64,000 nucleotides of DNA from the NCBI GenBank assembly GCA_013314755.1, contig JABUFA010000010.1, positions 42,270 to 106,269 on the forward strand, given 5' to 3'. The position numbers and the translations under genes were made by a program. Shown here in pieces: positions 19,369 through 28,502 of the stretch; the first letter of the stretch is position 1, and the number at the start of each line of letters is the position of its first letter. Origin of the DNA: Chthonomonadia bacterium (GTDB taxonomy: Bacteria; Armatimonadota; HRBIN16). Under the pieces are notes generated by a model. The model had not been told where the DNA came from and did no database searches. It saw only the letters and a list, made by a program, of their open reading frames with translations.

Positions 19369-19408
19369 GGAGGGTGAGCCGCGATGCTCCACGTCGCACT
19401 CACCCTCC
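19369..19408. terminator. Intergenic hairpin between pilQ and pilB
   Basis: GGAGGGTGAG and CTCACCCTCC form a perfect 10-bp stem; GCGA and TCGC inside the 20-base loop can extend it. It lies 22 bases after the pilQ stop and 59 before pilB. No T-run follows, so it may be an RNA-stability or processing element separating two parts of the operon rather than a strict terminator. Confidence 0.45.
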
Positions 19409-19466
19409 GCTCTTCTCGCAAGAAAGGGGCGGGTATTGTTGCTCGCCAGGGGACAAGGCAGTAGCG

Positions 19467-21191
19467 ATGGCATCCACAACCGGTGAGATATTCGTACAGG
19501 CAGGGCTGATTACCCGCGAGCAACTCGCGATGGCGATTGAAAAGCAGAAACAGCTGCAATCGCACGAGAACATCGGTGAGTTGCTGGTGGATATGGGGCT
19601 GATTACCGAACGCGACCGCGTCCGGTGCATGGGCGAGCACTGGGGCGTGGCGTATGTGGACTTGTCACAACAGCCTCCTGACCCTGAAGCGCTGAAACTG
19701 CTGGCACAGGACATCGCCCGCCGGTTCAAGGCGGTTCCCATCAACATCAACAACGGACGCCTGACGGTGGCGATGGTCAACCCCCTGGACATCTTCGCCA
19801 TCGACGAAATCCGCCTTATCACCGGCAAGGACGTAGAGCCGGTCATCGCCACCGAAGAGGACGTGCTGAACGCACTGAACTCCGCTTATCGCCAGGAGAC
19901 AGCGGTGACCGACGTCCTGAGCCAGGTGGTGCGCGAGATAGACGACTCCCAGATAGCCGTGCAGAGCGCGTCCCGCAGTGATGAGGAAGAGAACCTCAGC
20001 GTGGAACAGCTGCGCGAGATGAGCGAGGACGCGCCCGTGGTGCGCCTGGCGAACCTCATCATCACCAAAGCCATTCAGGACAAAGCCAGCGATATCCATA
20101 TTGAACCCGCCAAAGAGTATGTGAAGGTGCGTTATCGTATTGACGGTATCATGCAGGATGCCATGGTATTGCCCAAGCGGGTGCAGGCTTCGCTCATCAG
20201 CCGTTTCAAAATCATGGCGGATATGGACATTGCCGAAAAGCGCGTGCCCCAGGATAACCGAATCTCCGCGGTGATAGACGGCAAGAGCTACGATTTCCGC
20301 GTGTCCACCCTGCCGTCCGTTCATGGCGAGAAGGTGGTTATGCGTGTGCTGGACCGAAGCAGTATCACGGTGGACTTCCATAAGCTCGGTATGCTTCCCC
20401 ACACGCTGGAAATGTTTGAGGCGATGATAACCCGTACATATGGAATAATCCTTGTGACGGGACCGACAGGCTCGGGTAAATCCACCACGCTGTACTCGGT
20501 GCTGTCCAAGCTCAATTCGGGCGAGAAGAACATTTTGACAATTGAAGACCCGGTGGAATACGAGCTGCAGGGGCTGACCCAGGTCAACGTGAACCCCAGA
20601 GCGGGCATGACCTTCGCGGCGGGACTGCGTGCGATGCTTCGCCAGGACCCGGACATCATCATGGTCGGCGAGATTCGCGACGCCGAGACCGCCATCATCG
20701 CCATTGAAGCGGCGTTAACGGGTCACCTGGTGCTGTCCACCCTGCACACCAACGACGCGCCGGGCGCGGTGGCGCGATTGCTGGATATGGGCGTGGAGCC
20801 GTTTCTGATTGCCTCTTCGCTGGTGGGGGTACTGGCTCAGCGTCTGCTTCGCACCATCTGTTCAAAGTGCAAGGAGCCTTATGTGCCGCCGCGCGATGCC
20901 ATGCAGAGGCTGGGCATGAACCTTGACGGGCATTTCAACGTGACCTTTTACCGAGGGCGTGGCTGTGATGTCTGCAAGGGAACCGGCTACAAGGGGCGCA
21001 CCGGCATCTACGAGCTGATGCCGGTTACCGATAAGGTACGTGAGCTGATTCTGGCGCGGGCATCGTCCTACGCCATTCGCGAAGCGGCCATCGAGGCGGG
21101 AATGCGCACTCTGCGCGAGGATGCCATGCAGAAAATCCTGCTGGGCATCACCACACTGGAAGAATCGTTGCGAGTCATCTACTCAGGCTGA
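19467..21191 (+). CDS. pilB: Type IV pilus extension ATPase PilB
   Basis: Hexameric cytoplasmic ATPase that drives pilus assembly, 574 residues from ATG 19467 (the ORF in the track begins in the hairpin region without support). An MshEN/GspE N-terminal domain occupies about residues 1-150 (FVQAGLITREQLAMAI, a fold that in some relatives binds cyclic-di-GMP). Walker A GPTGSGKSTT is at about 331-340 and Walker B IIMVGEIRD at about 396-404. Four zinc cysteines are seen as CSKC (about 465) and CDVC (about 498), the signature that separates PilB/GspE from PilT. Confidence 0.94.
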   Translation: MASTTGEIFVQAGLITREQLAMAIEKQKQLQSHENIGELLVDMGLITERDRVRCMGEHWGVAYVDLSQQPPDPEALKLLAQDIARRFKAVPININNGRLTVAMVNPLDIFAIDEIRLITGKDVEPVIATEEDVLNALNSAYRQETAVTDVLSQVVREIDDSQIAVQSASRSDEEENLSVEQLREMSEDAPVVRLANLIITKAIQDKASDIHIEPAKEYVKVRYRIDGIMQDAMVLPKRVQASLISRFKIMADMDIAEKRVPQDNRISAVIDGKSYDFRVSTLPSVHGEKVVMRVLDRSSITVDFHKLGMLPHTLEMFEAMITRTYGIILVTGPTGSGKSTTLYSVLSKLNSGEKNILTIEDPVEYELQGLTQVNVNPRAGMTFAAGLRAMLRQDPDIIMVGEIRDAETAIIAIEAALTGHLVLSTLHTNDAPGAVARLLDMGVEPFLIASSLVGVLAQRLLRTICSKCKEPYVPPRDAMQRLGMNLDGHFNVTFYRGRGCDVCKGTGYKGRTGIYELMPVTDKVRELILARASSYAIREAAIEAGMRTLREDAMQKILLGITTLEESLRVIYSG

Positions 21192-21218
21192 AAACCATAA
21201 CGTATCGGAGGTAGATAG

Positions 21219-22094
21219 ATGGGTTCACAGGTAGGGGTATATCCGAAATCGCCCCAGGAAGTGGTGCAGAGCGTCGGCGAGATAGCCATGATTCCGCAGG
21301 TGGTGATGAAGGTGCTGGATATGACCAGCAACACCCGCGCCACCACACAGGAACTGGAAGAGGTTATCGGGCAGGATCAGGGTTTGACCAGCAAGGTGTT
21401 GACGCTGGCGAACTCCTCTTACTATGGGTTACCCCGTCGGGTCAGCTCCCTGCGCGAGGCGGTAATGTTTCTGGGCTTCCGCGCCGTGCGCAACATCGCC
21501 ATGACGGCATCATGCTACAACATGTTTATCGGCAAATCCGACAGCCAGAGCCTTCTGAAACGGCGCATCTGGAAGCATTCGGTGGACACTTCCCTGCTCA
21601 CGCGCTTGGTCTGCTCCTATGCGCCCGATGTGGTGCCCGACGAGGCGTTCGCCGCCGGCTTACTGCATGATATCGGCAAGGCGGTGCTGGAGCAGTACTA
21701 CCCGCAAGCCATGATACAGGTGGTGCAGACGGCAGAACGGTTAGCCATCCGACACCACGAGGCAGAGGAGCAGATTCTGGGCTTCAACCATGCAGACGTT
21801 GGGCTGGCGCTTGCCATTCACTGGAACCTGCCCACCGCGCTGGCGGAGGCAATCGGCTACCACCATTACATCTCCGCTGCGATGACCGCGCCCAAGCTGG
21901 TCGCAGTGGTGGCGATAGCCAGCGACATCTCCAACATGCTGGAAGATAGTATCAGTGACGAGCTTTGGGAAGCTGTTATCAGTCGGGAGGCGATGCAAAC
22001 GCTGGGCATATTACCCGAGCAGATAGAAGCTCTGCTTGCCGGGTGCAGGGTAGAGGCAGAGCGCAGTGCAGGACTGCACAACATGGCAGCCTGA
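21219..22094 (+). CDS. HDOD-domain protein within the pilus operon
   Basis: 291 residues, almost all one HDOD domain (about 15-215): VVMKVLDMTSNTRATTQELE, LANSSYYGLPRRVSSLREAV and the degenerate HD motif LLHDIGK, then a YHH motif near 225. HDOD proteins are signalling or scaffold modules in motility and cyclic-di-GMP networks; most lack phosphodiesterase activity. It sits between pilB and pilT with gaps of 27 and 16 bases, so it is surely co-transcribed and probably tunes pilus motor choice or twitching. The partner is not known. Confidence 0.88.
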   Translation: MGSQVGVYPKSPQEVVQSVGEIAMIPQVVMKVLDMTSNTRATTQELEEVIGQDQGLTSKVLTLANSSYYGLPRRVSSLREAVMFLGFRAVRNIAMTASCYNMFIGKSDSQSLLKRRIWKHSVDTSLLTRLVCSYAPDVVPDEAFAAGLLHDIGKAVLEQYYPQAMIQVVQTAERLAIRHHEAEEQILGFNHADVGLALAIHWNLPTALAEAIGYHHYISAAMTAPKLVAVVAIASDISNMLEDSISDELWEAVISREAMQTLGILPEQIEALLAGCRVEAERSAGLHNMAA

Positions 22095-22110
22095 CAGGAG
22101 GTGAATTTGC

Positions 22111-23322
22111 ATGGAGCACGGCAACATGCGACAGATAATGGACATTGAGGACCTGGTGCCGCTGGAGGACGAAGGCTATCCAGCCCACTCCCCGGAGAGG
22201 GCACCGGTAGCCGTTGAAGGGGAAGCAGGTCACTCCACCGACGGGGAAACTCTTCCCATCGACGAGGTGCATATTGATGACCTTCTGCGCATGACCGTGG
22301 AGAAGGGCGGTTCCGACCTGCACCTGTCTGTCGGGTTGCCGCCGATGGTGCGGGTGGACGGACGGCTCTATCCGCTACCCTTTGACCCGTTGAACCCGCG
22401 TGACATTCAGCGGCTGGTATACGACATCCTGACTGGCGAGCAGATACAGAAGTTTGAAAAAACGAAGGAGCTGGACTTCTCGTATGGCGTGAAGGATGTG
22501 GGCAGGTTCCGCTTCAATGTGTACCGACAGCGCGGCTCGGTGGGATGCGCGATGCGTGCCATCCCCTCCGCCATCCCCACGCTGGAGCAGCTGCGCCTGC
22601 CGACCATCCTGCGCGACCTGACCCGGCGCCACAGCGGGCTGATTCTGGTCACCGGACCCACCGGCTCTGGGAAGTCTACCACCATCGCGTCCATGATTGA
22701 CGTGATTAACACCGAGCGCAACTGCCATATCATAACCATCGAGGACCCGATTGAATACCTGCACTCGCACAAGAACAGCATGGTCAATCAGCGCGAGCTG
22801 GGCACGGATACCGACTCGTTCCACAACGCCCTGCGCGCCGTTCTGCGCGAAGACCCGGACGTGATTCTGGTGGGCGAAATGCGCGACCTGGAGACCATTC
22901 GCGCGGCACTGACGCTGGCAGAGACCGGACACCTGGTGTTTGCCACCCTGCACACGCGCAACGCCCCACAGACGATAGACCGTGTGGTGGACGTGTTTCC
23001 CCCAGAACAGCAGGAGCAGATACGCATCCAGCTGGCAAACACCCTGGAGGCGGTTATCGCCCAACAACTCCTGCCGATGCTGGGAGGCGGGCGCGTGGCA
23101 GCAATAGAGATTATGATTGCCACCCCTGCTATCCGCAACCTGATTCGGGAAGGCAAGGTACACCAGATTTATTCCATCATGGAGACCAGCGCGCAGCAGG
23201 GAATGCAGACGATGGACCGTGCACTGGCTGACCTGCACCTTAACGGGCTGGTCTCGTTTGAAGAAGCGGCAATACGCTGTATCGACCGGGAGAACTTCAT
23301 GCGGTTTATACAGGCGCAATAA
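22111..23322 (+). CDS. pilT: Type IV pilus retraction ATPase PilT
   Basis: Cytoplasmic motor that depolymerises pili, 403 residues. The canonical PilT body starts near residue 50 (IDDLLRMTVEKGGSDLHLSV); the first 50 residues are an extra acidic extension. Walker A GPTGSGKSTT is near 182, ASP box IEDPIEYLH near 212, Walker B VILVGEMRD near 252. No tetracysteine motif, which fits PilT rather than PilB. The start ATG 22111 follows GGAGGTGA. Only one retraction ATPase gene is in the operon. Confidence 0.94.
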   Translation: MEHGNMRQIMDIEDLVPLEDEGYPAHSPERAPVAVEGEAGHSTDGETLPIDEVHIDDLLRMTVEKGGSDLHLSVGLPPMVRVDGRLYPLPFDPLNPRDIQRLVYDILTGEQIQKFEKTKELDFSYGVKDVGRFRFNVYRQRGSVGCAMRAIPSAIPTLEQLRLPTILRDLTRRHSGLILVTGPTGSGKSTTIASMIDVINTERNCHIITIEDPIEYLHSHKNSMVNQRELGTDTDSFHNALRAVLREDPDVILVGEMRDLETIRAALTLAETGHLVFATLHTRNAPQTIDRVVDVFPPEQQEQIRIQLANTLEAVIAQQLLPMLGGGRVAAIEIMIATPAIRNLIREGKVHQIYSIMETSAQQGMQTMDRALADLHLNGLVSFEEAAIRCIDRENFMRFIQAQ

Positions 23323-23340
23323 ACAAGGAGAGTGAGGACA

Positions 23341-24558
23341 ATGCCCCAGTTCATATACAGTGCTGTGGACCCATCCGGGCGCACCCTGCGCGGCGTGATG
23401 CAGGCTGACAGCGAGCAGCTGGTGCTGGCATGGCTGCATGAACAGCATTACCACGTGCTCAGCGTTCAGCCGAAGCGACAGGGCTTAAGCCTGACTGCAC
23501 TCAAGGAGCTGAACCGCTCCAAAAAGGTCAAACTGCTGGAGCTGGTGATGTTCAGCCGCCAGTTCGCCACGATGATTGATGCCGGTATTCCCATCCTGAA
23601 GAGCCTCGACGCGCTGGAAACGCAGGCGAAAAACCCTGTCCTGCGCGAGGTCATCGGGGCGGTGCGACAGGATGTGAAGGGCGGCATGTCGCTGGCTGAC
23701 GCGCTCAGCAAGCACCCGCACGTGTTCTCCAAGCTCTACGTCAATATGGTACGCGCCGCAGAGTTGGGCGGTATTCTGGACCAGATACTCGACCGCTTAG
23801 CGCAGTTCCTGGAAAAGGAGCTGGAAATCCGCCAGAAGATTAAATCGGCGATGATGTACCCTGTGCTGGTGCTGATATTCTCCGTGGTGATGGTGTTCGC
23901 GCTGTTCACGTTCGTGCTACCGCGCTTCAAAGAGATTTTCGAAAGCATGAACGTGAAGATGCCCGCCGCCACGCAGTTTCTGTTCAGCCTTAGCGACTAT
24001 GCGGTGGCTTACTGGTACGTGCCGCCCGCCCTGCTGGTGGGCACGCTCCTGTTCATCAAGCAGTACGGGAGGAACCCCAAAGGACGATACCAGATTGACC
24101 TGGTGAAACTGCGAGTGCCCATCATCGGCGACCTGGTGCTGAAGATGAGCATCTCGCGGTTCGCGCGCACGTTTGGCGTGCTGATTGCCAGCGGCGTCTC
24201 CATGATGCGTTCGCTGGAGATTGTCGCCGAGACCGCCGGCAACAGCGTGCTGGCCGGCGCGATTGATCAGGCACGCAACGCCGTGCGCGAGGGACAAAAG
24301 CTGAGTGCTCCGCTCGGCGCCAGCGGATTGTTCCCCACCATGGTAACGCACATGATCGATGTGGGCGAGGAGACCGGTCGCCTCAGCGATATGCTGGTGA
24401 AGGTTTCCGACTTCTACGAGAAGGAGGTGGACGCCACCGTTAAGGGCTTGACCTCCATGATTGAACCTATGCTGATTATCTTCCTGGGCGTCGTGGTGGG
24501 GTTCATTGCCATCTCGGTGATGACGCCTATCTTCACGCTGGTCAGCAGCATCAACTGA
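23341..24558 (+). CDS. pilC: Type IV pilus inner-membrane platform protein PilC
   Basis: Polytopic membrane protein that connects the motors to the growing fibre, 405 residues from ATG 23341 (MPQFIYSAVDPSGR; AGGAGAGTGAGG upstream). Two GspF-type cytoplasmic domains (about 70-190 and 275-395) each begin with FSRQFATMIDAGIPI or FARTFGVLIASGVSM, separated by membrane helices. The protein ends with a hydrophobic helix (IIFLGVVVGFIAISVMTPIF). Last gene of the pilus operon; no pilin or prepilin peptidase gene is in the window. Confidence 0.94.
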   Translation: MPQFIYSAVDPSGRTLRGVMQADSEQLVLAWLHEQHYHVLSVQPKRQGLSLTALKELNRSKKVKLLELVMFSRQFATMIDAGIPILKSLDALETQAKNPVLREVIGAVRQDVKGGMSLADALSKHPHVFSKLYVNMVRAAELGGILDQILDRLAQFLEKELEIRQKIKSAMMYPVLVLIFSVVMVFALFTFVLPRFKEIFESMNVKMPAATQFLFSLSDYAVAYWYVPPALLVGTLLFIKQYGRNPKGRYQIDLVKLRVPIIGDLVLKMSISRFARTFGVLIASGVSMMRSLEIVAETAGNSVLAGAIDQARNAVREGQKLSAPLGASGLFPTMVTHMIDVGEETGRLSDMLVKVSDFYEKEVDATVKGLTSMIEPMLIIFLGVVVGFIAISVMTPIFTLVSSIN

Positions 24559-24600: not shown

Positions 24601-25023
24601 TCACTCCTCGCACAGCACACCATCTTCGCCCGCTTCCGCGATGATGTCGCTGAGCGTGGTGCTGCGGAACGACTGTTCTACCAGCTCCCATGCATTGTCC
24701 AGCCGCTGGTGTAAGGGGCACAGCTTTTCACGATGCGCTTTCAGTTTCAACGGGCAGGAGGTAATGCGCGGAATCGGGTCTACCGCCTGCACAACCTCAT
24801 AGACAGTGATCTCCTCTGCGGGTTTTGCCAGTGTGAACCCTCCGCCCAACCCTCGGCGCGAGGTAATCAAACCCGCTTTGCTTAAACTCTGCAGAACCTT
24901 CGCCAGATAGCCCATCGGCACACGGGTAATGCGGGCAATTTGCTGATTGGTGTGCGGACGGTCAGGCTCCTGAGCCAGATACACCATTGCCCGCAAGGCA
25001 TACTCTGCCGTCTGCGAAATCAT
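24601..25023 (-). CDS. Rrf2-family transcriptional regulator
   Basis: 140-residue winged-helix repressor or sensor. The start at 25023 gives the classic MISQTAEYALRAMVYLA opening and has a GAGGAG site. The recognition helix region LAKVLQSLSKAGLITSRRG and the GGGFTLAKP wing are clear. The C-terminal part keeps cysteines in a CPLKLKAHREKLCPLH arrangement that could hold an iron-sulfur cluster or react directly, as in NsrR/IscR relatives, although the usual three-cysteine spacing is not exact. It is transcribed divergently from an NO reductase operon; the shared control region implies it senses NO and controls that operon. Confidence 0.88.
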   Translation of the reverse strand: MISQTAEYALRAMVYLAQEPDRPHTNQQIARITRVPMGYLAKVLQSLSKAGLITSRRGLGGGFTLAKPAEEITVYEVVQAVDPIPRITSCPLKLKAHREKLCPLHQRLDNAWELVEQSFRSTTLSDIIAEAGEDGVLCEE

Positions 25024-25048
25024 TTTTTCTCCTCCACAATAGCAGACC

Positions 25049-25078
25049 TTGACATCTATTTTATCACAGCGGTATAAT
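25049..25078 (+). promoter_or_regulatory. Promoter of the NO reductase operon
   Basis: TTGACA (25049-25054) and TATAAT (25073-25078) match both consensus boxes exactly with an 18-base spacer. Transcription would start near 25085, immediately before the palindrome. The strong core boxes suggest that control is by repression. Confidence 0.8.
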
Positions 25079-25086
25079 AAAAGCAA
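25058..25086 (-). promoter_or_regulatory. Promoter of the Rrf2 gene
   Basis: On the minus strand TTGCTT (25086-25081) and TAAAAT (25063-25058) are 17 bases apart. The boxes interleave with those of the plus-strand promoter, so the two promoters probably compete or share control. Confidence 0.6.
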
Positions 25087-25114
25087 ACTGGATAAAAATA
25101 TCTTATTATCCAGT
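25087..25114. promoter_or_regulatory. Candidate Rrf2 operator
   Basis: A perfect 9-bp inverted repeat, ACTGGATAA-N10-TTATCCAGT, with an AT-rich centre. It covers the predicted start of the NO reductase transcript and abuts the -35 box of the Rrf2 gene, so one bound dimer could repress both. AT-rich dyads of this span are usual for Rrf2 proteins such as NsrR; the half-site here is not one I can match to a characterised member. Confidence 0.65.
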
Positions 25115-25137
25115 AAATTCTAAAGGAGGAGACGAAG

Positions 25138-27429
25138 ATGCGATACACCAAACTCTGGTTCGGGCTGGCAGCCGTGGTTATCTTCTCCTTTGCCGTGCTG
25201 GGATACTACGGCTTTGAGATATATCAGCAGGCTCCACCGATTCCCCGTCGCGTGGTGACTACCGAAGGGGAAGTGCTGTTTACCCGCGAGCAGATTCTGC
25301 AGGGACAGAACGTCTGGCAGTCGATGGGCGGTCAGGAAGTCGGCTCCATCTGGGGACACGGTGCGTACGTCGCGCCTGACTGGTCAGCAGACTGGTTGCA
25401 CCGCGAGGCAGTGGCGATGCTGGACATTCTGGCGCAACAGCGATACGGTGTTCCGTATACCAGGCTTTCCGCTGAACAGCAGGCTCCTCTCCGGGAGCGG
25501 GTAAAGCGAGAAATCCGCACGAACACCTATGACCCTCAGACGGGCGACATCGTGGTTTCGCCGTTGCGGGCGCAGGCAATCCGCGCCGTCAGCGCACACT
25601 ACTCTGCTCTGTTCGGCAACGACTTGAACCTGCAAACCCTGCGTGAGGACTACGCGATTCCACCCAACAGCGTGCCCGACCCTCAGCGTCGCTCAGCGAT
25701 GAACGCCTTCTTCTTTTGGACAGCATGGGCTTGTGGCACGAATCGCCCCGGAAGCGACATCACCTACACCAACAACTGGCCCCACGAGCCTCTGATTGAC
25801 AACCATCCCACCAGCGCGATTGTGCTGTGGTCTATCATCAGCGTTTTCGCCCTGCTGGCGGGCGTTGGCGGGATGGTTTGGTACTTTGCCGCACGCCGTC
25901 AGGAGGGAGAAGAGGCTCCTGTGCCTGAGGAGAACCCTCTGCATGGGCTGAAAGTAACGCCGTCCATGCGTGCTACCATCAAGTACTTCTGGGTGGTGGC
26001 GGCGCTGTTTCTGGCGCAGGTGGTTTTCGGCATCCTCACTGCCCACTACGGTGTGGAAGGTCTCAGCTTCTTCGGCATCCCGCTGGCAAAGTATCTGCCC
26101 TATGCGGTGGTGCGCACCTGGCATGTGCAGCTGGGCATCTTCTGGATAGCCACCGCTTGGCTGGCGACGGGACTCTTCGTGGCGCCGGCGGTATCGGGCT
26201 ATGAGCCAAAGTTCCAGAAACTGGGGGTTAACCTGCTGTTCACAGCCCTGCTGGTGCTCGTTGTGGGTTCAATGGCTGGACAGTGGCTCTCGATCCAGCA
26301 GCGCATGGGACTGGACGTCAGCTTCTGGTTCGGGCACCAGGGCTATGAGTATGTAGACCTCGGCCGCTTCTGGCAGATTCTCCTGCTGGCGGGGCTGTTC
26401 CTGTGGTTAGGGCTGGTGGGACGTGCTCTGTTGCCTGCCCTGCGTGCACGTTCCGACAGCCGCAGCCTGCTGGCGCTGTTCCTGATGTCGGCGCTGGCAA
26501 TCGGCTCGTTCTATGGTGCGGGCTTGATGTGGGGTCGCCACACGCACCTGGCGATGGCGGAGTACTGGCGCTGGTGGGTGGTGCACCTGTGGGTAGAGGG
26601 CTTCTTCGAGGTGTTTGCCACCGCGGTTATCGCCTTCCTGTTCAGCCGGATGGGACTGGTGAAGGTAACGACCGCTACCAGTGCAGCGCTGTTCACCGCC
26701 ACAATCTACCTGACCGGTGGCATCATCGGCACGATGCACCACCTGTACTTCACCGGCACACCGACTGCAGTGCTCGCCTGGGGCGCGACTTTCAGCGCAC
26801 TGGAGATTGTGCCGCTGGTGCTGGTGGGGTACGAGGCTTACGAGAACCTGAAACTGAGCACCATTCGCCCCTGGGTGCAGGCGTTTCGGATGCCCATCCT
26901 GTTCTTCGTGGGCGTGGCGTTCTGGAACATGGTGGGCGCGGGGCTGTTCGGCTTTCTGATTAACCCACCAATCGCTCTGTACTACATGCAGGGATTGAAC
27001 ACCACGCCGGTACATGGGCATACCGCCCTGTTCGGGGTGTATGGACTGCTCGGGCTGGGCTTGATGCTCTTCTGCCTGCGTGCCTTCACCATGCACCGCG
27101 AATGGGACACTAGAACTCTGCGGTTCGCCTTCTGGTCGATGAACATCGGGCTGTCGCTGATGGTTCTGCTGAGCCTGTTGCCCATCGGGCTTCTGCAGGC
27201 GGTGGCGAGCATTGACCAGGGGCTGTGGTATGCACGCTCGGCGGAGTTTCTCCAGCAGCCGCTGTTGCAGACGCTTCGCTGGATGCGTGCGATTGGCGAT
27301 ACCGTCTTCACCGTCGGTACGGTCGCATTCGCCTGGTTCGTTGCTGGCTTGCACACCGGCTGGTCGCTTAAACCGGTGGAGGAAAAAGTTCCGGTATCGC
27401 GCGAGCACGAACCAGTACTTAGCAACTGA
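25138..27429 (+). CDS. norZ: Quinol-dependent nitric oxide reductase
   Basis: Membrane enzyme reducing two NO to N2O with electrons from quinol, 763 residues. It is a single-chain qNOR: the N-terminal region (about 1-230) is the NorC-like extra-cytoplasmic part between two membrane helices but has no CxxCH haem-c site, and the rest is the 12-helix NorB-like core. Core ligands are visible: WHVQLGIFW, the iron-B group VHLWVEGFFE and GTMHHLYFTG, and the haem ligands in VHGHTALFG. The start has a strong AAAGGAGGAGA site. First gene of the NO-stress operon; probably for detoxification since no nitrite reductase is nearby. Confidence 0.94.
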   Translation: MRYTKLWFGLAAVVIFSFAVLGYYGFEIYQQAPPIPRRVVTTEGEVLFTREQILQGQNVWQSMGGQEVGSIWGHGAYVAPDWSADWLHREAVAMLDILAQQRYGVPYTRLSAEQQAPLRERVKREIRTNTYDPQTGDIVVSPLRAQAIRAVSAHYSALFGNDLNLQTLREDYAIPPNSVPDPQRRSAMNAFFFWTAWACGTNRPGSDITYTNNWPHEPLIDNHPTSAIVLWSIISVFALLAGVGGMVWYFAARRQEGEEAPVPEENPLHGLKVTPSMRATIKYFWVVAALFLAQVVFGILTAHYGVEGLSFFGIPLAKYLPYAVVRTWHVQLGIFWIATAWLATGLFVAPAVSGYEPKFQKLGVNLLFTALLVLVVGSMAGQWLSIQQRMGLDVSFWFGHQGYEYVDLGRFWQILLLAGLFLWLGLVGRALLPALRARSDSRSLLALFLMSALAIGSFYGAGLMWGRHTHLAMAEYWRWWVVHLWVEGFFEVFATAVIAFLFSRMGLVKVTTATSAALFTATIYLTGGIIGTMHHLYFTGTPTAVLAWGATFSALEIVPLVLVGYEAYENLKLSTIRPWVQAFRMPILFFVGVAFWNMVGAGLFGFLINPPIALYYMQGLNTTPVHGHTALFGVYGLLGLGLMLFCLRAFTMHREWDTRTLRFAFWSMNIGLSLMVLLSLLPIGLLQAVASIDQGLWYARSAEFLQQPLLQTLRWMRAIGDTVFTVGTVAFAWFVAGLHTGWSLKPVEEKVPVSREHEPVLSN

Positions 27430-27443
27430 GGAGGTTACACGAG

Positions 27444-27764
27444 GTGGCTAACCCATATCTGTTCCTGACAGACCTGGCACAGCAGGTGGAAATCCCGCAG
27501 GATGGTATCCTGAGCCGCACGCTGTATCAGGATGAGCATGTGAAGGTAGTGCTCTTTGGGTTCGACAAAGGGCAGGACCTTTCCGAACACACGGCGTCTA
27601 TGCCCGCTCTGCTCCATTTTGTGCAGGGTGAGGCGACGCTCACGCTGGGGTCTGAAGAACGCATCGCCACCGCCGGCACCTGGGTCTACATGACACCGAA
27701 CCTGCCCCACAGTGTGGTGGCAAAGACGCCAGTGGTGATGCTGTTGATACTTCTCAGGCAATAA
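27444..27764 (+). CDS. Small cupin protein of the NO-stress operon
   Basis: 106-residue single cupin domain. The metal-binding pattern is partial: HTASMPALLHFVQGEATL in motif 1 and PNLPHSV in motif 2. It begins with GTG 27444 after GGAGG, 14 bases after norZ, and is followed 18 bases later by the RIC gene, so it belongs to the same transcript. Cupins of this size are frequent beside NO reductase and RIC genes, but what this one does is not established. Confidence 0.75.
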   Translation: MANPYLFLTDLAQQVEIPQDGILSRTLYQDEHVKVVLFGFDKGQDLSEHTASMPALLHFVQGEATLTLGSEERIATAGTWVYMTPNLPHSVVAKTPVVMLLILLRQ

Positions 27765-27782: not shown

Positions 27783-28502
27783 ATGGCAAACATTGACCTA
27801 AGTACCACTGTAGCGCAGCTGGTCATCGAGAAGCCGGCACGCGCCCGGGTCTTCGAACAGCTGGACATTGACTACTGCTGTGGTGGCAAGAAACCCCTTC
27901 GGCAGGCTTGCGAGGAGAAGGGAGTGAACGTGGACGAGGTGGTGCAGCGACTGCTACAGGTAGAAGAGAACAGCGAAGCCGAAGAGCGCGATTGGTCGCA
28001 GGCGACGCTCACCGAGCTGTGCGAGCACATCGTGCAGACGCACCACGAGTATCTGCGCCAGGAGCTGCCTCGTCTGAGCGAACTGGCACGCAAGGTGGCA
28101 GATGCCCATCGCGAACGACATCCCGAGTGGGACGAGGTGCGCGAGGTTTACGAGAGTCTGCGCTTTGAACTGCAACTGCACATGCAGAAAGAGGAGCACG
28201 TGCTGTTCCCCGCCATCATGCAGATGGAGCAGGCGAACGCCCCTCTGCGCTTCCACTTCGGCACGGTGGCGAACCCCATCCGCATGATGGAGTATGAGCA
28301 CGACAACGCGGCGGAAGCCCTGCGGAGGCTGCGTCATCTCACCAATGGATACACCCCTGCCGAGGATGCCTGTCCGACCACCCGCGCCCTGCTGGACTCG
28401 CTGCAGGCTCTGGAGAAGGACCTGTATCTGCACATCCACAAGGAGAACAACATCCTGCACCCGCGCGCTATCGCGCTGGAGGAGCAGCTCCTCAGGCGGT
28501 AG
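27783..28502 (+). CDS. ric: Iron-sulfur cluster repair di-iron protein (RIC/ScdA/YtfE)
   Basis: Cytoplasmic di-iron protein that repairs iron-sulfur clusters damaged by NO or oxidants, 239 residues. The N-terminal DUF542 domain has the CC motif (DIDYCCGGKKPL, about residues 28-39). The C-terminal hemerythrin-like domain supplies the iron ligands: HIVQTHHEYL, MQKEEHVLFPAI, MEYEHDNA and HIHKENNILHPRA. A good AGGAGG site precedes the ATG. Together with norZ and the Rrf2 regulator this is a complete NO detoxification and repair unit. Confidence 0.93.
   Translation: MANIDLSTTVAQLVIEKPARARVFEQLDIDYCCGGKKPLRQACEEKGVNVDEVVQRLLQVEENSEAEERDWSQATLTELCEHIVQTHHEYLRQELPRLSELARKVADAHRERHPEWDEVREVYESLRFELQLHMQKEEHVLFPAIMQMEQANAPLRFHFGTVANPIRMMEYEHDNAAEALRRLRHLTNGYTPAEDACPTTRALLDSLQALEKDLYLHIHKENNILHPRAIALEEQLLRR

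Follow-up and report, generated by a model that had tools for sequence, protein, structure and literature searches.

An NsrR-like Rrf2-family repressor probably clamps two interleaved divergent promoters, that of its own gene, rrf2, and that of norZ, through a pair of operators (O1 and O2), from which NO would release it; this reading is drawn from sequence comparisons. The locus lies in the window, the whole stretch of 64,000 nucleotides that was analysed, which belongs to a 3.95-Mb genome of the phylum Armatimonadota, in a genus that includes Bacterium HR16. The genes concerned are:

24601-25023, minus strand: rrf2, Rrf2-family regulator of 140 amino acids (Pfam Rrf2, E 9e-34)
25138-27429, plus strand: norZ, quinol-type single-subunit NO reductase (qNor) of 763 amino acids (Pfam NorB_cytochrome_c-like, E 6e-77; COX1, E 8e-60)
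27444-27764, plus strand: second gene of the operon, cupin_2 protein of 106 amino acids (Pfam Cupin_2, E 5e-8)
27783-28502, plus strand: third gene (ric), RIC/YtfE/ScdA iron-centre repair protein (TIGR03652, 247 bits against a cut-off of 204.7; ScdA_N and Hemerythrin)

The norZ-cupin-ric genes constitute an NO-removal and repair operon, whose cupin gene is the one found divergent from rrf2 in those members of the genus that have no norZ. Positions 19374-24558 of the window are occupied by type IV pilus/type II secretion genes (two ATPase-like ORFs and a T2SSF/PilC protein), which extend up to rrf2 and are apparently unrelated. The 114 bases between the rrf2 ATG (25023, minus strand) and norZ (25138) contain the following elements:

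25038-25063: operator O2, over the norZ -35 and the rrf2 -10/+1, AGATGTCAAGGTCT on the minus strand (18.3 bits, rank 3 in 64 kb)
25049-25054, plus strand: norZ -35, TTGACA, inside O2
25063-25058, minus strand: rrf2 -10, TAAAAT, 17 nt from the -35 (5/6 consensus matches)
25073-25078, plus strand: norZ -10, TATAAT, after an 18-nt spacer
25086-25081, minus strand: rrf2 -35, TTGCTT, abutting O1 (3/6 consensus matches)
25084-25109: operator O1, register a, core GGATAAAAATATCT (25.7 bits, rank 1 in 64 kb; the window's genus had no part in training the motif)
25087-25114: dyad ACTGGATAA-N10-TTATCCAGT noted earlier, of which 25090-25111 is the core shared by the genus
25092-25117: operator O1, register b, shifted by 8 bp (18.5 bits, rank 2 in 64 kb)
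25122-25132, plus strand: norZ ribosome-binding site AAAGGAGGAGA, assigned from the sequence

The two promoters are interleaved on opposite strands within the same 40 bases, and both are present as the original prediction had given them, that of norZ as TTGACA-18-TATAAT and that of rrf2 as a minus-strand TTGCTT-17-TAAAAT. The norZ promoter matches the consensus at 12 of 12 positions, shuffled sequences being expected to yield 0.5 sites per kb with at least nine matches. In the genus alignment the rrf2 -10 is largely invariant, and the rrf2 -35 reads TTGATT, TTGACT or TTGACC in sister genomes.

The perfect 9-bp dyad that had been proposed as the operator is also there: it has a single match in the window at up to three mismatches and none in 100 shuffles, and a single exact match in the whole genome. 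Its placement has to be amended, as it does abut the rrf2 -35 but occupies about +2 to +30 relative to the norZ start that is expected, downstream of it and not over it. The 9-bp arms were rejected as the conserved unit, since the outer ACT/AGT triplets occur in the window only, the form found in the genus being the 22-bp GGATAAGAATATATTCTTATCC, and two genomes of the genus (G004 and G006) retain the N6 core alone; the conserved operator unit is [AG]GAT-N6-ATC[CT]. When the 64-kb window was scanned, the three best positions, O1a, O1b and O2, all fell within the rrf2–norZ intergene, and the next-best position scored 11.0 bits. O2, which the earlier description lacks, is placed 46 bp (register a) or 54 bp (register b) from O1. 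The site fits the suggested shared control of the divergent promoters, but the picture of one dimer on one dyad does not hold, because O1 has two overlapping registers and a second operator exists.

Within the genus, six of ten genomes contain the 22-bp form, each of them once and in every case at rrf2. O1 and O2 occur at the same positions in six of eight genus genomes; O1 is also present in G006, and in G004 it lies farther upstream, behind an apparent insertion. In the latter genome (locus L009, G004:C124) about 190 bp appear to have been inserted between the promoter/O2 and the rrf2 start, and of O1 only the N6 core is left. Only four of the ten genomes have norZ, and the site is kept at all four of these genes, so that the absence of the dyad upstream of orthologous norZ genes, named beforehand as a refutation, was not observed. 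Moreover, the operator persists where the cupin gene replaces norZ. Being always at rrf2 and retained without norZ, it travels with the regulator gene and not with the reductase gene. In the genus alignment, the columns without variation comprise, among others, the ATAT core and TCC within O1, GTCAAGGT within O2 and the greater part of each -10 hexamer; TGTCAAGGT of O2 is mostly invariant. Part of the conservation of O2 is promoter conservation, since it overlaps the -35 hexamer.

The same operator is found well beyond the genus. The subfamily of the Rrf2 protein is large (at least 540 related stretches in genome contigs), and a palindromic motif search was carried out on the 220 bases upstream of the 77 best rrf2 loci outside the window's genus, the majority of them in Planctomycetota, Acidobacteriota and other Armatimonadota. 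It rendered, de novo, the motif aaAanTTGGATnTnnAnATCCAAntTtt (ca. 19 bits), with the core TTGGATnTnnAnATCCAA. The spacing of GGAT-Nk-ATCC peaked at k=6 (24 seen versus 0.46 expected) and at k=14 (12 versus 0.40), two spacings that result from two registers 8 bp apart (14 = 6 + 8). Among rrf2 genes of the subfamily that had been held out, 9 of 16 carried a site of at least 17 bits, in contrast to 12 other Rrf2 genes, the genome's own paralogues included, which reached at most 7.8 bits; a strong site was missing in 7 of the 16 held-out and in 23 of the 77 training loci. Two or more sites of at least 13 bits were present in 14 of the 77 loci, mostly 44-54 bp apart. The double register of O1 was found again at two loci of other Armatimonadota with a qNor neighbour (L135 and L136), the second of which bears ACAGGATA-N12-TATCCTGT, similar to the long dyad of the window. 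The fact that the motif tracks the subfamily across phyla and is missing before the 12 other Rrf2 genes indicates that the operator belongs to this Rrf2 subfamily.

A genome-wide search was carried out with a sequence-only motif profile (R1) and with patterns, at weak E-values; R1 matched four of the ten genus genomes at E up to 1, and the 22-bp pattern finds six. A search of the genome for the dyad had been put forward as a means of defining a regulon, and the exact dyad yields nothing but its own copy, but the profile adds the narK operon, RIC genes and a globin gene. In the window's genome R1 matches only the rrf2–norZ intergene and the promoter of the narK operon (narK-molybdopterin oxidoreductase-FeS/cytochrome-cytochrome b), with marginal E-values of 0.19-0.46. 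The best genome-wide motif match (G000:C53:185-211; L143, L160) lies directly before this operon, and a site is found there in all three genus genomes that have the operon (25.7, 23.3 and 24.1 bits). The narK promoter is again TTGACA/TATAAT, its -35 letters CCTTGACAyC are the same as those of norZ, and at both promoters the O1 core starts 11-12 bp after TATAAT. Most profile matches in 23 other Armatimonadota genomes are at rrf2, the remaining ones including RIC genes (G082, G089, G096) and a gene for a bacterial-like globin (G087). The RIC promoter of G082 (L164, another family) is not divergent, and has one site over TTGACA and one after TATAAT. The recurrence of the pair there, together with the matching O1 spacing at narK, suggests that an operator over the -35 and another over the start is the layout of target promoters and not an accident of divergence.

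Recurrent rrf2 neighbours among the relatives are qNor, RIC, cupin and protoglobin genes (neighbours were assigned for about half of the 77 distant loci). The predicted regulon would therefore comprise nitrate and NO metabolism and be wider than rrf2 and norZ; as its targets are nitrate/NO genes, the signal is most likely to be NO or a related nitrogen oxide. A copper nitrite reductase was sought in the window's genome and not found. Matches inside reading frames (L178, L185, L182, L187) were left out of the regulon, as were L146 (G004, 12.5 bits, near a multihaem cytochrome gene) and L144 (G008). L186 is a further profile match outside this account, and at L173 (G029:C1:1021966) a strong palindromic copy, TTTGGATATTTCTATCCAAAT, is flanked by a secreted-protein-like gene on one side and an aldo/keto reductase gene on the other, and a link to NO is not evident.

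The regulator itself is a member of the Rrf2 superfamily (PF02082, 116.9 bits vs 30; TIGR00738, 122.4 vs 73.3), but scores below the NCBIfam equivalogs for NsrR (64.1 vs 182 bits) and IscR (60 vs 207 bits). Its AF2 model (pLDDT 90), for which the best Foldseek match is RsrR (6hsd, TM 0.81), predicts a fold like that of RsrR, CymR, IscR and NsrR. The residues of interest for a cluster are E7, R11 and C90-x6-H97-x4-C102-x2-H105, H97 being located between the two cysteines. C-x6-H-x(3-4)-C-x2-H is found in 80 of 80 relatives and E7 in 79; E7 and R11 are invariant in 16 aligned sequences, and as residues alone they correspond to the acidic ligand of NsrR at position 8 and to Arg12, its salt-bridge partner. 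On the other hand, the middle cysteine of NsrR is absent from 79 of the 80 relatives (present in one), so the sensor chemistry is not that of a textbook NsrR, which counts against a plain NsrR reading. RsrR ligates its [2Fe-2S] cluster by two Cys, Glu8 and His12; E7 and the two cysteines align with these, and the position of His12 is taken by R11. In Streptomyces coelicolor NsrR (ScNsrR) three cysteines are joined by Asp8, and Arg12 links to the recognition helix, whereas IscR has C104 and His107 among its ligands (PMC5411485). An Fe-S cluster with mixed Cys/His/Glu ligands is plausible here, since E7/R11 mirror Asp8/Arg12, C102/H105 mirror the IscR pair and H97 lies near the place of the missing cysteine.

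In the mechanism that we infer, which supposes that the protein binds both operators, represses and does not activate, carries such a cluster and has NO as its signal, one or more dimers would, without NO, occupy both O1, which directly follows the norZ -10 and adjoins the rrf2 -35, and O2, which covers the norZ -35 together with the start of rrf2, thus excluding RNA polymerase from both promoters. NO from nitrate respiration or from the environment would damage or nitrosylate the cluster and set the protein free. Expression of norZ-cupin-ric, of the narK/nitrate-reductase-like operon and of the rrf2 gene would then last until the NO is removed. Position alone leaves the sign of the regulation unsettled, because NsrR of Thermus both activates and represses (PMC5748679). 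We nevertheless consider it improbable that the Rrf2 protein is an activator, or a mixed activator and repressor: the Thermus protein, encoded with DUF542 and cupin proteins, activates the norC and nirJ promoters (PMC5748679), but here O1 downstream of the -10 and O2 over the -35 are in polymerase-blocking positions, and a norZ promoter with full consensus hexamers should need no activator. It is also unlikely, though somewhat less so, that the same protein on the same operators responds to redox or Fe-S status, in the manner of RsrR or IscR, the NO genes being one output among others. RsrR, the closest solved relative, is a [2Fe-2S] redox sensor, C102-x2-H105 matches C104-x2-H107 of IscR (PMC5411485), and there is no third cysteine; the unbiased targets (RIC, globin, narK) and the neighbours (qNor, RIC, cupin, protoglobin) are, however, NO/nitrate genes and not genes for NAD(P)H or Fe-S assembly.

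The genome holds three other Rrf2 genes, and the dyad might be read by one of these paralogues or by another unrelated regulator, for instance of the CRP/FNR type; this is very unlikely, as the motif accompanies this rrf2 subfamily from phylum to phylum, is not seen before the 12 other Rrf2 genes and is present with or without norZ. An RNA hairpin in the norZ leader was rejected and has hardly any probability left: a 9-bp stem could form (-9.8 kcal/mol), but its z is only -1.43 and it has no Rfam match, and what is kept is the GGAT/ATCC letters and not pairing alone, G004 having lost the long arms while keeping the N6 core GGATATTCGCATCC.

The repressor reading can be extended to a wider proposal, which we offer tentatively and with somewhat less than even expectation: Armatimonadota, Planctomycetota, Acidobacteriota, Melainabacteria and others may share a widespread and so far undescribed class of Rrf2 repressors that respond to NO. 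Their cluster, with two Cys, His and Glu, would replace that of NsrR with three Cys, and they would clamp promoters over the -35 and the start by way of a composite GGAT/ATCC operator with 8-bp offsets and two spacings. In the literature searched we found no Rrf2 NO regulator described for Planctomycetota or Armatimonadota, and no paper on Rrf2 with Planctomycetes and nitric oxide or on Rrf2 with protoglobin. The results provide a testable regulon and operator code for nitrate/NO metabolism in Planctomycetota and Armatimonadota, and natural variation in the ligands of NsrR, of use in asking how the choice of cluster ligands decides whether an Rrf2 protein responds to NO, redox or iron.

Among known systems, IscR shares the C-x2-H at the third ligand position, but it regulates Fe-S assembly and keeps its middle cysteine, C98, which is absent here, and the score of our protein is far below the IscR cut-offs. 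RsrR of Streptomyces venezuelae is the closest solved relative both by sequence (32-34% identity) and by fold; it likewise has two cysteines, and is thought to repress its own gene and a divergent one from two intervening sites (PMC5015018), although its targets are NAD(P)H/glutamate genes and its site is of the 11-3-11 type. The closest analogue in gene content is NsrR-Th/NsrS/NsrT of Thermus thermophilus, in which an Rrf2 protein goes with DUF542 and cupin proteins in nir/nor control; unlike our system, it has three cysteines, activates norC and binds the palindrome CTTGACC-NN-GGTCATGG (PMC5748679), whereas in the window DUF542 is part of a full RIC protein and the cupin gene lies between norZ and ric. 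With NsrR of Escherichia coli, Bacillus and S. coelicolor the regulator shares the Rrf2 fold, the acidic residue and Arg of helix 1, and predicted autoregulation and NO-detoxification targets (nor, ric/ytfE, globins). As had been remarked of its half-site, however, the operator, [AG]GAT-N6-ATC[CT] with a second register offset by 8 bp, differs from the canonical NsrR motif gATGyAT-N5-ATrCATc (PMC1274295). Since neither this motif nor the three cysteines of NsrR are found, we regard the regulator as probably NsrR-like in function and as a distinct Rrf2 subfamily, not NsrR.
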